Source of the DNA: Streptacidiphilus sp. ASG 303
GTDB taxonomy: Bacteria; Actinomycetota; Actinomycetes; Streptomycetales; Streptomycetaceae
Assembly: GCF_020991365.1 (NCBI RefSeq)
Contig: NZ_JAJLRA010000001.1
Span: forward strand, 424,142 to 488,141
Direction of reading: 5' to 3'
DNA length: 64,000 nucleotides
Shown: piece by piece, positions 57,949 through 64,000 of the stretch
Numbering within the stretch: the stretch's first letter is position 1
Layout of the letters: each line of letters begins with the position of its first letter
Translations under genes and position numbers: made by a program
The notes under the pieces: model-generated
Database searches by the model: none
The model's input: only the letters and a program-made list of their open reading frames with translations
What the model was told of the DNA's origin: nothing

Positions 57949-59928
57949 TCAGACCTGGACGCGGTCCCGGACGGCCTTCACGATCTCGGCGACGGCCTCG
58001 TCCACCGGGACGCCGTTCTTCTGCTCGCCGCTGCGGTAGCGGAAGGAGACGGCCCCGGCCTCGACGTCGTCGTTGCCGGCCAGCAGCATGAAGGGCGCCT
58101 TGGCCTTCTGCGCGTTGCGGATCTTCTTCTGCATGCGGTCGTCGGAGGCGTCCACCTCGACGCGGACGCCCTCGGCGCGCAGCTTCGCCGCGACCTCCTG
58201 GAGGTACGGGACGTGCTCGTCGGTGATCGGGATGCCGACCACGGCGACGGGGGCGAGCCACGGCGGCATGGCGCCGGCGTAGTGCTCCAGCAGCACGCCG
58301 AAGAAGCGCTCGATCGAGCCGAAGAGCGCCCGGTGGATCATGACGGGCTGCTGACGGGACCCGTCCGCCGCGGTGTACTCCAGGTCGAAGCGCTTGGGCT
58401 GGTTGAAGTCGACCTGGATGGTCGACATCTGCCAGGAGCGGCCGATGGCGTCCTTGACCTGCACGGAGATCTTCGGACCGTAGTACGCCGCGCCGCCCGG
58501 GTCGGGGGTGAGCGGCAGGCCCTGCTTCTCCGCGGCCTGGCGCAGGGCCTCGGTGGCCTCCTCCCAGTCCTCGTCCGTGCCGATGAACTTGTCGGAGTCG
58601 TCGCGGGTGGACAGCTCCAGCTCGAACTCGGTCAGGCCGTAGTCGCGCAGCAGGTCGAGCACGAAGGTCAGGAGCGTGTCGAGCTCCTGCGGCATCTGCT
58701 CCTTGGTGCAGTAGATGTGCGAGTCGTCCTGGGTGAAGCCGCGGGAGCGGGTCAGGCCGTGCACCACGCCCGACTTCTCGTACCGGTAGACCGTCCCGAA
58801 CTCGAACAGCCGCAGCGGCAGTTCGCGGTAGGAGCGTCCGCGCGACTTGAAGATCAGGTTGTGCATCGGGCAGTTCATCGCCTTGAGGCGGTAGTTCTGC
58901 TCGTCGAACCGGATGGCCGGGAACATGCCGTCCGCGTAGTGCGGCAGGTGCCCGGAGATCTCGAAGAGGTGCTCCTTGGAGAGGTGCGGGGTGTTGACGA
59001 ACTCGTAGCCCGCGGTCTCGTGCTGCCTGCGCGAGTAGTCCTCCATGGCCTTGCGGATCACACCGCCCTTGGGGTGGAAGACCGCCAGGCCGGGGCCGAG
59101 CTCGTCGGGGAAGGAGAACAGGTCCAGCTCGGCGCCGAGCTTGCGGTGGTCGCGCTTCTCCGCCTCGGCGAGGAAGTCCAGGTGGGCCTTGAGCTCGTCC
59201 TTCGACGGCCAGGCGGTGCCGTAGATCCGCTGGAGCTGCTTGTTCTTCTCGCTGCCGCGCCAGTAGGCGGCGGCGCTGCGCATCAGCTTGAACGCGGGGA
59301 TGAGGCGGGTGGTGGGCAGGTGGGGACCGCGGCAGAGGTCCTTCCAGCACAGCTCCCCGGTCTTCGCGTCCAGGTTGTCGTAGATGGTCAGCTCGCCCGC
59401 GCCGACCTCGGCGGAGGCGCCGTCGGCGGCCTCGGCGGCGGAGCCCTTGAGGCCGATCAGCTCCAGCTTGTACGGCTCGGCGGCCAGCTCCTCGCGAGCG
59501 GCCTCGTCGGTCACCGCGCGGCGGGAGAAGCGCTGGCCGCGCTTGACGATCTCCTGCATCTTCTTCTCGACGGCCTTGAGGTCGTCGGGGTGGAAGGGCT
59601 TCTCGACGTCGAAGTCGTAGTAGAAGCCGTCCTTGATCGGCGGGCCGATGCCGAGCTTGGCCTCGGGGAAGAGCTCCTGCACGGCCTGGGCCATGACGTG
59701 GGCGGTGGAGTGGCGCAGGATCGCCAGGCCGTCCTCGCTGGTGACGGCGACGGGCTCCACCTCGTCGCCGTCGGCGAGCACGTGGGCGAGGTCGCGCAGG
59801 GCGCCGTTCACGCGGGCGGCGACGACGGCGCGGTCGCCGGCGAACAGCTCGGCGGCGGTAGTGCCCGTGGTCACCACGCGCTCTTCCCGATCGGGTTCGC
59901 GGTTGATGGTCACACGGACGTCCGACAC
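57949..59928 (-). CDS. thrS: Threonyl-tRNA synthetase
   Basis: Class II synthetase (659 aa). Order: TGS domain (1-~65), editing domain with [19 protein letters not shown], catalytic core with zinc-binding [19 protein letters not shown] (Cys), the two His in motifs [20 protein letters not shown] and [15 protein letters not shown], and anticodon domain from about residue 555 ([15 protein letters not shown]-like segment). Full length. GTG at 59926-59928 with GGAGAG upstream. No T-box leader is visible in the 76-base gap, which instead holds two 9-bp direct repeats TTCCGCGAG (59941-59959 on the plus strand). Confidence 0.97.
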
Positions 59929-60004
59929 CGGTCTCTCCTGACTCGCGGAACTCGCGGAATGCTTTCGGAGCAGCCTACGGCTGCGGTGTCGATGGTACCG
60001 AGAA

Positions 60005-61315
60005 TTACGGAGCGTCCTCCTCGGGGCGGTCCCGCAGCGCCTTGAGGAGGCGGTCGCGCTCGGCGTCGTCGAGCTCGCAGGGTTCGACGCCGCGGGGGCG
60101 GACCAGCCGCCGGAACCCGCTGCCGGGCTCCAGACGGCCGCCGAGCCGCAGCGGGACGCCCGCCAGGTGCGCCCGCACGGCGGTGCGGTACTCCTCCTCC
60201 TCCAGCCGGACGCGGACCTCCGCGACGTCCGCCCCGGCCAGCACCCGCAGCCGCACCGCCCCGGCGCCGTCCGGCCGCGGCCGCCCCAGCCGCACCACCG
60301 CGCCGGTGATCCGGACCTCGACCGCGAGCTCGGCCCGCTCCAGCCGCTCCACCGCCTCCTCCAGGGCCGGCAGGTCGCCGGGCGAGAACTCCACGGGCGG
60401 CCGCCGGTCGGTGAACCCGCGCGGCGTACCGGCCGCCGGGGACCAGGCGAGGGCGACCTGAGCCCCCTCGCTCCCCCGGACCAGCTGCGCCACCGAGGCC
60501 GCCAGCTCCCGGCTCACCCCGGCGCCCACCGACCCGTCGAAGGCCTCGGGCCGCCCGGTGGCCCGGCGGTAGTCGACCGCGTCGCGCAGCGCCTCCAGGG
60601 AGCGGACCAGCACGGTGGTGGCACCGCGGCCCTCCGGCGCGGGCACGTGGGCGGTGAGCCGGCCGGCGCCGCTGCCGGGCCCCGCCACCAGCACCTGCCG
60701 CAGGAAGGCGGCGGCGTGCCCGTCGAGCCGGGCGCCGAAGAAGGCCGCCCGGGTGTGCGCCGCCTTGGCCGCGGCCCGCAGCATGGCCGCGGCGGCGGCG
60801 CGCAGCGCGTCCTCGGCCTCCCAGGGCACCGCGCCGTCCGCGCCGGGCGCCTCCCGCTCCCAGCGGACCTCGTCGCCGGGCACGTCGAGGGCCAGCAGCA
60901 CGGACCGGGCGGACGGCAGCGGGGAGCGGACCAGTGCGGCGAGGGCCTCGGCGAGCAGCTCGTCGGCGTCGTCGAAGGCCCGTCCGGCCGGGACCAGCAG
61001 GCTGAGGCCGGACGCCTCGCCGCCGGGCGGCGTCCAGCGGCCGTAGCGGTCGGCCGGGCCGCCGCGGCGCACCCAGCCGTGGCGGGCGAGCAGGGCGCCC
61101 AGCACCCCGGGGTCGACACGGCCGGGGTCGACGCGGGGCGGTCCGGGCCACGGGCCGGCGGCCGCGTCGGCGCGTCCGGTGGCGGCGCGTCCGGTGGCGG
61201 CGCGTCCGGTGTCCGGCCGTCCCGCGTCCGCCCGGCCGCTGACCGGCCGTCCCTGTCCGCCGCCGTCCGGCCGCCCGTCGCCGCCGGGCCCGTCCTCACG
61301 CGGTGTCGCAGTCAC
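60005..61315 (-). CDS. Unknown protein downstream of DUF4365 gene
   Basis: A 436-residue protein I do not recognise. Residues 1-60 are low-complexity ([14 protein letters not shown] from a 15-bp DNA repeat). The remainder is Ala/Arg/Glu-rich and well structured in pattern ([77 protein letters not shown]), predicted alpha/beta with no nucleotide or metal motif that I can identify. GTG at 61313-61315 with GGAGG six bases upstream, 12 bases after the DUF4365 gene, so co-transcribed with it. Confidence 0.75.
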
Positions 61316-61327
61316 GCGCGCCTCCCG

Positions 61328-61894
61328 TCATGGGCTGCCGCCCGCGCCGACGCGGGCCATGATGTCGCAGAGCGCGCGGTCGTCGAAGATCCGCGCCGTC
61401 GGGACGCGCACGTTGGTGCGGCGCTTCCCGGTGACCGGGTGTCCCGCGAGGTTGACCCAGTAGCAGCAGTGCCGCAGCTCCAGGCGGTCGGGCCGGGCCA
61501 GCAGCCAGTCGTCGACGGCGCTGGGCAGCAGCATCACCACCAGGATGCGGTGGACCGCCACCCGGGACCGGGCGAGGGTGCGCAGGTGGTCGTTGTCGAG
61601 GGTGAAGCTGAAGAACGGGCCGGGCGGACAGGCGGCCGTCTGCTGCGTCGCCTTGAGCTGGATCTTGACGGTGACCTCGTCGTCGACCGCGTGGAGCGGC
61701 GAGCCGTGGCTGACGTGCCAGTCGATGCCGTTGTCGGGGAACGGCTGGGAGAGCGAGCAGCCCGCGGCGGCGGCGACGGCGTGCAGGTACGCCACCTGCA
61801 GCGTCTCCATGCAGGCGGTGGTCGCCAGGTCCCCTCGCAGCGGTGCGGCCCACACCGTGGGCGAGGCCCCCGGCTCGGGCTGTGTCAGCGCCAT
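61328..61894 (-). CDS. DUF4365 domain protein, PD-(D/E)XK nuclease-like
   Basis: A 188-residue DUF4365-family protein. The motif order fits a restriction-endonuclease-like fold: Glu30 in ACMETLQVAYLHAVAAAAG, Asp58 in NGIDWHVS, and Gln79-x-Lys81 in VKIQLKATQQ, i.e. E...D...QxK. The nuclease prediction is an inference; in this family the function is unknown. The ATG at 61892-61894 (MALTQPEPG) is chosen at the start of conserved-looking sequence; a GTG at 61957 would extend it. It starts an operon with the 436-residue unknown gene and is divergent from the exonuclease, 182 bases apart. Confidence 0.8.
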   Translation of the reverse strand: MALTQPEPGASPTVWAAPLRGDLATTACMETLQVAYLHAVAAAAGCSLSQPFPDNGIDWHVSHGSPLHAVDDEVTVKIQLKATQQTAACPPGPFFSFTLDNDHLRTLARSRVAVHRILVVMLLPSAVDDWLLARPDRLELRHCCYWVNLAGHPVTGKRRTNVRVPTARIFDDRALCDIMARVGAGGSP

Positions 61895-62076
61895 GGCCGT
61901 GCCGTCCCCGTGTCCCCGTGGCGGCCCCGGCGTCCTGGGGAGCGGACAGGCCGTCACCCGGGGTGATCCCCCGCCGCGGGGAGGGCGAAACGCGCAGGTC
62001 GGGACGGGTTGCCCGGCGGCGGAGCGGGTATCACACCGCCAGGAGGACGTGCCGCGAGAGGAAGTGAGGTCCCGTC

Positions 62077-62850
62077 ATGGCGCACTGGTACGAGGGGCCC
62101 CTCGCCGCCTTCGACACCGAGACCACCGGCGTGGACGTCGAGACCGACCGCATCGTCTCCGCGGCGCTCGTCCTGCAGCCCGGCCCGGCGGAGCCCGCCC
62201 GGACCCTCCACTGGCTCGCCGACCCCGGCGTCCCCATCCCCGAGGCCGCCCGGGCGGTGCACGGGATCAGCGACGCCGAGGTGCGCGCGCACGGCCGGCC
62301 GCCGCACGCGGTCGTGGACGAGGTGGCCCGGGCGCTGGCCGACCTGGCCGGCGCCGGGGTGCCGCTGGTGGTGATGAACGCGCCGTACGACCTGACCCTG
62401 CTCGACCGGGAGCTGGAGCGGCACCGGGGGCGGTCGCTGGCCGACCACCTGGGGGACGACGCGCCGCTGCTCGTCCTGGACCCGCGGGTGCTCGACAAGC
62501 ACGTGGACCGCTACCGCAAGGGCCGGCGGACGCTGACCGACCTGTGCGTCCACTACGGGGTGGTCCTCGGGGCGGCGCACGACGCGGCGGCGGACGCGCT
62601 CGCGTCGCTGCAGGTCGTGCGGGAGATCGGCCGCCGCCACCCGGGGACGCTCGGCTCCCTCTCCCCCGGCGAGCTGCACCCGCGGCAGGCCGTGTGGCAC
62701 GCGGCGCAGGCCAGGGGGCTGCAGGCGTGGTTCGAGCGGTCGGGGACGCCGGAGCGGGTGGACACCGCCTGGCCGCTGCGGCCCCGGCGGTGCGGGTGCG
62801 GGCGGCGGCTGCAGCCGGGGCGCGTGCACAGCTGCGAGGCGGCGGCCTGA
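62077..62850 (+). CDS. DEDDh 3'-5' exonuclease (DnaQ-like)
   Basis: A 257-residue exonuclease. The acidic site is complete: Asp13 and Glu15 in AAFDTETTGVD, Asp105 in VMNAPYDLTLLDRE, and His168/Asp173 in GAAHDAAADALAS (HxxxxD). The HGISDAEV segment is typical of the DnaQ/epsilon type. A short C-terminal tail has CGCGRRLQPGRVHSC, a possible metal knuckle. It may proofread or trim DNA or RNA; not the main DnaQ fused to polymerase. ATG at 62077 with GAGG upstream. Confidence 0.92.
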   Translation: MAHWYEGPLAAFDTETTGVDVETDRIVSAALVLQPGPAEPARTLHWLADPGVPIPEAARAVHGISDAEVRAHGRPPHAVVDEVARALADLAGAGVPLVVMNAPYDLTLLDRELERHRGRSLADHLGDDAPLLVLDPRVLDKHVDRYRKGRRTLTDLCVHYGVVLGAAHDAAADALASLQVVREIGRRHPGTLGSLSPGELHPRQAVWHAAQARGLQAWFERSGTPERVDTAWPLRPRRCGCGRRLQPGRVHSCEAAA

Positions 62851-62932
62851 GCGTCCCGGGCCTCCCGGGCCGGCCCGGGAGGCCCACCCGCGCCAGCGGC
62901 CCGGACCCGCGGAACCCCGGCGCACGCACGGC

Positions 62933-62967
62933 GAAGGCCCCGACCGGATGATCCGGTCGGGGCCTTC
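62933..62967. terminator. Terminator shared by the exonuclease gene and first tRNA-Val
   Basis: Perfect 17-bp inverted repeat (62933-62949 and 62951-62967) around one base, followed on the plus strand by TTC. Confidence 0.92.
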
Positions 62968-62974
62968 TTCCCGG

Positions 62975-63046
62975 TGGGCGATACTGGGATCGAACCAGTG
63001 ACCCCTTCGGTGTGAACGAAGTGCTCTCCCGCTGAGCTAATCGCCC
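62975..63046 (-). tRNA. tRNA-Val (anticodon CAC)
   Basis: Full cloverleaf on the minus strand: acceptor GGGCGAT/ATCGCCC with discriminator A, D arm AGCTCAGCGGGAGAGC, anticodon stem CTTCG/CGAAG with loop TTCACAC (anticodon CAC, reads GUG), T arm with GGTTCGATCCC. CCA is not encoded. A possible promoter (TTGCGG, then TAACGT) lies just upstream. Confidence 0.97.
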
Positions 63047-63228
63047 GGGCACAGGAAGAACGTTACCACCCTCCCGGGGGCGCCCCGCAACGCGCTTCCC
63101 GGTGACCGGCCGTCAGGAGGCGGCCGGGGTGCCGGAGCCGACGCCGGACCACTCGGGGAAGCGGCCCGGAACCGGTCCCGCCCCGCGCGCGGAACCACCG
63201 GACGGAGCATTCCTGCGACAATGCGGAA

Positions 63229-63254
63229 ACCCCGGCCGGAATTCCGGCCGGGGT
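63229..63254. terminator. Terminator after the second tRNA-Val
   Basis: Perfect 26-bp palindrome (two 13-base arms, centre AATT) 10 bases beyond the tRNA 3' end. Confidence 0.88.
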
Positions 63255-63264
63255 CCATTCCCGG

Positions 63265-63336
63265 TGGGCGATACTGGGATCGAACCAGTGACCCCTTCGG
63301 TGTGAACGAAGTGCTCTCCCGCTGAGCTAATCGCCC
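63265..63336 (-). tRNA. tRNA-Val (anticodon CAC), identical copy
   Basis: Identical over its 72 bases, and a few bases to each side, to the copy at 62975-63046; the two are 290 bases apart start to start. Also anticodon CAC. A -10-like TAATGT lies upstream. Confidence 0.97.
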
Positions 63337-63394
63337 GGGCGCAGGGAAAACATTACCGCATGTCGCAGGGTGGTCGTGACCGGCGCCCCCCGGG

Positions 63395-64000
63395 TCACCA
63401 CCGGGGGAGCGCCCACCCGTACCGGCTCACGTACAGGGCGGCGCCGGCGGCGAGCAGCACCAGGACGGCCGCGAGGATCAGCAGGTTCCGCCGGCGCACC
63501 CGCGGGTCGACGGCCTTCCTCGCGTACTCGGTGAGCTTGGCCTTCGTCCAGTGCAGCAGGCGCTGGGCCCAGGCGAACTCGGTGGCGAGGATCGCCAGGC
63601 CGCCGAAGATCACGGCCCAGCCGGGGCCGGGCAGGGGGAGCAGCAGCACGCCGCCGGCGATCACCGCGACGCCGACGACCAGGATCCCGATCCGCCAGGT
63701 GAGGTGCAGCGACCGGGAGCGGCGGATGAACGCGGGGGCCCTGGACCCGTACCGGGGGCGGGGCCGCTCACCGTCCCGCCCCTCGCCGCCCCGTCCCTCG
63801 TGGACGTGCCCCTCGGGGACGTGCCCCTCGTGGACCCGTCCGCCGTGGTCGCGGCCCGCAGCGGCCTCCCGGCCGGGGACCCGGTCACGGCTGTCGTCGG
63901 GGCCTGGCTGCGGGCCGGTCCGGGACTCCGGTCCGGGAGGGGACTGCGACCGGGTGCCCCGGGCCGCGCCGGTGCCCTCGTGGTCTCTCTGCGGCGCCAT
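63395..64000 (-). CDS. PGPGW-motif transmembrane protein (TIGR02611-like)
   Basis: A 201-residue protein with a charged, His/Gly-rich cytosolic N-terminus (HGGRVHEGHVPEGHVHEG repeats, about 50-70) and then a membrane part: LTWRIGILVVGVAVIAGGVLLLPLPGPGWAVIFGGLAILATEF, two helices around the family motif PLPGPGW, and a third helix near the C-terminus (LLILAAVLVLLAAGAALYVS). Function unknown. The ATG is at the very last base triplet of the window, so a start further upstream cannot be excluded. Confidence 0.85.
   Translation of the reverse strand: MAPQRDHEGTGAARGTRSQSPPGPESRTGPQPGPDDSRDRVPGREAAAGRDHGGRVHEGHVPEGHVHEGRGGEGRDGERPRPRYGSRAPAFIRRSRSLHLTWRIGILVVGVAVIAGGVLLLPLPGPGWAVIFGGLAILATEFAWAQRLLHWTKAKLTEYARKAVDPRVRRRNLLILAAVLVLLAAGAALYVSRYGWALPRW

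Follow-up and report, generated by a model that had tools for sequence, protein, structure and literature searches.

Organization of the locus

The window (the whole 64,000-nucleotide stretch of DNA that was analysed) contains three ORFs flanked by thrS on one side and two tRNA-Val genes on the other. M02A (61328-61894, minus strand) encodes a 188 amino acid DUF4365 protein that, judging from Pfam, PADLOC, and motif conservation, is a predicted PD-(D/E)XK nuclease subunit. It is immediately upstream of M02B (60005-61315, minus strand), whose 436 amino acid product was characterized using PADLOC, AlphaFold2, and Foldseek. M02B has a GTG start codon 12 bp past the M02A stop codon, with a GGGAGG ribosome-binding site ahead of it; because of this short gap and the ribosome-binding site, the two genes are probably co-transcribed. 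The third gene (62077-62850, plus strand) encodes a DEDDh (DnaQ-like) 3'-5' exonuclease of 257 amino acids, recognized by RNase_T, NF005927, and its DEDDh motif, and is a lineage-specific divergent neighbour of the pair. All three ORFs proposed in an earlier, sequence-only reading of this DNA were found intact, and the 182 bp that it gave for the region separating M02A from the divergent exonuclease gene agrees with the coordinates (61895-62076). A scan of those 182 bp found neither a sigma-70 consensus promoter nor a terminator.

The borders of the block are thrS (57949-59928, minus strand; TIGR00418, 1.5e-196, and synteny), which is 76 bp from M02B, and, on the opposite side, a tRNA-Val (CAC) gene (62973-63046, minus strand) identified by ARAGORN and Rfam RF00005 and by a comparison of spacings. 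The two tRNA-Val (CAC) genes are 290 bp apart and lie in 100-nt copies that are 96% identical (62968-63357). A mobile-element reading of the block was considered and rejected: a single direct-repeat run at one setting (59700-63420, minimum length 16, seed 11) gave no pair framing it. That run listed the two copies of tRNA-Val, weaker pairs of GC-rich sequence, and, within M02B, a 15-bp tandem stretch. The tandem stretch (61168-61227) encodes part of the low-complexity M02B N-terminus, which is predicted to be disordered. Scans of the neighbouring window proteins against Pfam and NCBIfam revealed no defence genes and no Argonaute or APAZ. The window locus sits beside housekeeping genes and not in a defence island, and a housekeeping role fits as well.

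A predicted nuclease and its partner with a predicted OB fold

M02A matches Pfam PF14280 above the Pfam cut-off (72.4 bits, E 5.2e-20, profile positions 4-138 of 139) and, over residues 1-188, the PADLOC profile PDC-M02A (PDLC04276, 1.7e-84). M02B has no match in Pfam, NCBIfam, or PHROG, and had been described as belonging to no known family; that description fails because residues 61-431 match PADLOC PDC-M02B (PDLC04317) at 7.1e-146. By these profile matches, the pair is already catalogued as the PADLOC candidate defence pair PDC-M02, of which the window copy is a further member, and the suggestion that this might be an undescribed system therefore goes too far. The name PDC-M02 was found in no paper of the literature searched; PDC systems are unpublished candidates that came from a guilt-by-embedding approach, and validation is pending for most of them (PMC12988326). 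The window pair matches both PDC-M02 profiles over nearly their full length and has the gene order and close coupling of distant pairs, but it differs in being chromosomally fixed between thrS and tRNA-Val, in its linkage to an exonuclease, and in lacking, in M02B, the TxxGS motif found throughout the distant set.

The PD-(D/E)XK-like residues initially proposed for M02A (E30, D58, Q79, and K81) agree with the 188 amino acid form starting at 61894. E30 and D58 are kept in 22/22 aligned M02A family sequences, and Q79 and K81 in 21 of the 22; D58, Q79, and K81 are also invariant in the M02A of 13 sequences from four phyla. These residues are in register with the solved DUF4365 proteins 9qbq/9qbp, although the match is weak (E 0.07-0.16), and an AlphaFold2 model of M02A from three input sequences reached a pLDDT of only 44.8. 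M02A is thus predicted, from its sequence, to be a small PD-(D/E)XK nuclease. In one genome of the window's family (G017; L016/L081), the M02A match is broken by a change of frame between residues 118 and 157, which reflects either decay or a sequence error.

The nearest studied relative is SPARDA, a short pAgo with a DUF4365/DREN-APAZ nuclease, in which DUF4365 is the effector nuclease and works with a partner that recognizes nucleic acid (PMC12205087, PMC10810196). In the NbaSPARDA DREN domain, nuclease activity is abolished by D41A and Q60A and impaired by K62A, and D41A also abolishes defence (PMC12205087); the like residues of TmuRE are Q62/K64 (PMC10810196). E30, D58, and Q79xK81 of M02A match the residues mutated in NbaSPARDA (PMC12205087). 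Unlike the SPARDA nuclease, however, M02A stands alone as a domain, and M02B is a different protein: searches of Pfam and NCBIfam found no Argonaute or APAZ in M02B, nor is there an Argonaute in the best 50 PDB fold matches listed for its model.

The AlphaFold2 model of M02B, also from three input sequences, is of moderate confidence (pLDDT 72.3, pTM 0.62), and the predicted layout comprises a disordered N-terminus to residue ~56, an alpha/beta part, and a C-terminal OB-fold-like domain at ~333-412. Compared with the PDB by Foldseek, the C-terminal part resembles RPA32, SSB, PriB, and CST (probability up to 1.00, E >= 3.9e-3), and the majority of the best fold matches are RPA, SSB, and other OB-fold proteins, all spanning just ~100 residues at E >= 3.9e-3. 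The C-terminus of M02B is accordingly predicted to adopt an OB fold like that of RPA and SSB. In a viral structure library, the sole M02B match below 1e-3 was a protein of Leptospira phage LE1 (E 2.7e-14). Every M02B of the distant set has the TxxGS motif, which is missing from the M02B clade of the window's family; M02B function may therefore have shifted in the family.

Distribution of the locus in the window's family

When 37 genomes of the window's family were compared at thrS, 21 had M02B with the exonuclease, one had M02B only, three had the exonuclease only, and 12 had neither. The trio occupies a stretch of roughly 3 kb between thrS and tRNA-Val. Measured from thrS, the closest tRNA-Val gene is a median of 2967 bp away in 18 genomes with the trio and 1097 bp away in three exonuclease-only genomes; of nine genomes with neither gene, six have it at 172-360 bp and the remaining three at 3.4-6.8 kb. 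In a larger draw of 150 family genomes, the corresponding numbers were 85, 4, 28, and 33, and these are raw genome counts, uncorrected for kinship, with M02A inspected in only some of the 85. M02B and the exonuclease gene were adjacent and divergent in 84 of the 85, the remaining genome having them on separate contigs. A contig search with M02B found two Streptomyces relatives, and only these two, with M02B proteins 57 and 59% identical to that of the window; these two point to a Streptomyces-type source for the window and a family of Streptomycetaceae type.

All three genes are under purifying selection: in nine genome pairs, dN/dS was 0.10-0.25 for M02A, 0.15-0.39 for M02B, and 0.09-0.28 for the exonuclease, which argues that the trio is more than a chance arrangement. 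M02A-M02B is apparently inherited vertically within the family. The exonuclease tree follows genera broadly, and exonuclease-only genomes are placed next to the window's genus, so loss of M02A-M02B is suggested in those genomes by the branching order.

Because the chromosomal place is fixed, a role in DNA repair has to be weighed. The pair would then be a domesticated device for repair or for processing replication intermediates, in which the M02B OB domain binds single-stranded DNA and directs M02A, and possibly the exonuclease, to damaged DNA or to DNA at collapsed replication forks; the defence label would come only from mobile relatives. Such a role would suit the position beside thrS in the genomes compared there, the exonuclease adjacency in 84/150 genomes, the broadly genus-ordered exonuclease tree, the purifying selection on the three genes, the lack of defence genes among the window neighbours scanned, and a divergent M02B that has a predicted OB fold and no TxxGS. 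However, the pair is patchy in a way that core repair genes are not, as 61 of the 150 family genomes are without an M02B match at 1e-40 and the pair is absent from the site in some, and its relatives are found on plasmids and prophages. We consider a repair function unlikely, albeit worth keeping in mind.

Relationship of the pair to the exonuclease

The exonuclease was initially described as a complete DnaQ-like enzyme, and this holds: it matches NCBIfam NF005927 at 9.1e-88 with 293.9 bits, above the curated cut-off of 186, and RNase_T in Pfam at 2.7e-14, and the DEDDh residues (D-x-E, D, H, D) are present in 24 of 24 exonuclease sequences. It is thus like other DnaQ-like DEDDh exonucleases (NF005927/PRK07942) but differs from them in being thrS-linked; another copy, 44-51% identical, is located elsewhere in most genomes of the window's family searched.

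A possible reading is that, in the window's family, the exonuclease works with M02A-M02B as a three-component module, for example by degrading cut ends, by removing the activating nucleic acid, or by shielding the host from the nuclease. M02B is accompanied by the exonuclease in 85 of the 89 genomes that have it in the 150-genome draw, and none of the four M02B matches lacking an exonuclease match is an intact M02A-M02B pair. In two of these (G226 and G454), all that was found of the three genes is a remnant of M02B. A third (G382) is a frameshifted sequence in which thrS, M02A, and the exonuclease are all matched in fragments; the exonuclease is therefore present. In the fourth (G010; L022/L062), the catalytic QxK of M02A is changed to RxT, and this is also the sole genome of the 37 having both M02 genes but no exonuclease at thrS. 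On a thrS tree, the presence of M02B and that of the exonuclease change jointly in about 5/5 independent pairs (median p = 0.0625).

These observations carry unequal weight. G226 and G454 may each represent one deletion entering from the exonuclease side, and the evidence for dependence therefore comes down to G010, the only informative genome of the four, and the tree test, which has only five pairs; moreover, the thrS tree splits apart three genomes of the same genus and for that reason was not used as a species tree. The genome counts, as noted above, take no account of kinship. Evidence that M02A-M02B depends on the exonuclease is consequently thin, and the 28 genomes with the exonuclease and no M02B match, together with its absence from all distant loci (below), speak against a three-component module, which we regard as doubtful.

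The proposal of a three-gene nuclease unit, and of a neighbourhood conserved as such, consequently stands in part. M02A is coupled to its partner, and inside the window's family the three genes occur together, with the exonuclease as a conserved divergent neighbour (84/150); outside the family they do not, as a profile search found the exonuclease at 0/22 distant M02B loci, and it is not a core component. Given this result, the 28 exonuclease-only family genomes, and the second copy elsewhere, the exonuclease is best explained as an accessory or independent neighbour of M02A-M02B.

Distant M02A-M02B pairs

The 22 distant M02B loci come from four whole genomes, 10 plasmid records, six viral contigs, and two phage records, and they are partly dependent: L042 seems to be nearly a copy of L043, and the profiles used were built in part from some of these loci. 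With profiles built here, M02B was matched at 22/22 and M02A beside it at 18/22; M02A was unmatched in L033, where a 110 amino acid ORF lies ahead of M02B, and in the viral L042, L043, and L045, which have short M02B ORFs. Junctions were measured in 14 of the 18 pairs (all but L027, L028, L031, and L034) and range from a 20-bp overlap to a 5-bp gap, seven being an overlap of exactly 4 bp; the order in all 14 is M02A then M02B, as in the window. In L034, the record ends 189 bases from the M02B start, leaving only a partial M02A match.

Plasmid records alone cover Actinomycetota, Pseudomonadota, Bdellovibrionota, Spirochaetota, and Cyanobacteriota. On a Streptomyces plasmid, the pair lies close to a type I-E cas operon; a spirochaete plasmid that carries it also has DUF262 and Abi genes; and on a Rhizobium conjugative plasmid, it is near a helicase and an STY4851-family gene. 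In Mycobacterium phage prophi102-2, a Mycobacterium abscessus prophage, M02A and M02B are the first two genes from the left end (L110:398-2160), and the temperate Leptospira phage LE1 bears the pair as well (L111:3435-5113). IMG/VR contigs provide a further M02B setting, the viral scan with a narrower alignment having given six loci. Ten proteins taken from L036, L041, L044, L046, L110, and L111 all match PDC-M02A or PDC-M02B in PADLOC. A phylum scan with one alignment (A3; six candidates scored per genome listed) returned seven genomes, all of the window's family; it was not taken to indicate absence elsewhere because it missed relatives beyond the family that had come up in a search with a single protein.

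A small nuclease gene tightly joined to a larger partner gene and carried by plasmids and prophages could also be a two-gene toxin-antitoxin-like unit in which M02B silences M02A. This appears highly improbable, as M02B, roughly double the nuclease in size, has an OB-fold-like domain, and the studied relatives are effectors that are turned on by recognition of nucleic acid (PMC12205087, PMC10810196).

Proposed role

The match between the M02A motif and the SPARDA residues, together with the OB-like C-terminus of M02B, leads us to infer a nuclease directed by a binding partner, and a role against invading DNA is favoured because relatives are on plasmids and prophages, some of them near CRISPR, DUF262, or Abi genes. 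We think it reasonably probable that M02A-M02B is a chromosomally fixed member of PDC-M02, i.e., a candidate anti-invader module in which a PD-(D/E)XK nuclease is directed by a nucleic-acid-binding partner, with the exonuclease being accessory or independent. The C-terminal OB-fold-like domain of M02B would recognize nucleic acid, probably single-stranded DNA, that is abnormal or comes from an invader; M02B would then position or activate M02A, which would cut the nucleic acid so recognized. The sequences themselves show the pair of genes, the families they belong to, the conservation of the catalytic residues, purifying selection, synteny, and the presence of relatives on plasmids and prophages; nuclease activity of M02A, the complex, OB-mediated sensing, the substrate, and the role in defence are all inferred here.

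This candidate defence pair, present in records from five or more phyla, some of them plasmids and prophages, was uncharacterised and now has a proposed, testable mechanism attached to it, and its chromosomal copies in Streptomyces-type bacteria are amenable to deletion. A more elaborate and rather unlikely history is that a mobile PDC-M02 pair took up residence in the interval from thrS to tRNA-Val and evolved there into a chromosomal system of three parts: an active M02A would be tolerable or useful only with the help of a dedicated DEDDh exonuclease, and loss of the exonuclease would accompany decay of M02A-M02B. If the dependence on the exonuclease is true, the chromosome would have adopted a mobile immune nuclease along with its guard enzyme.

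Some genomes have more than one pair: G040 carries two (L024 and L028), and G024 has a distant second pair (L027) in addition to the one at thrS. A second prophage record, prophiGD54-1, gave the same M02B match as prophi102-2.
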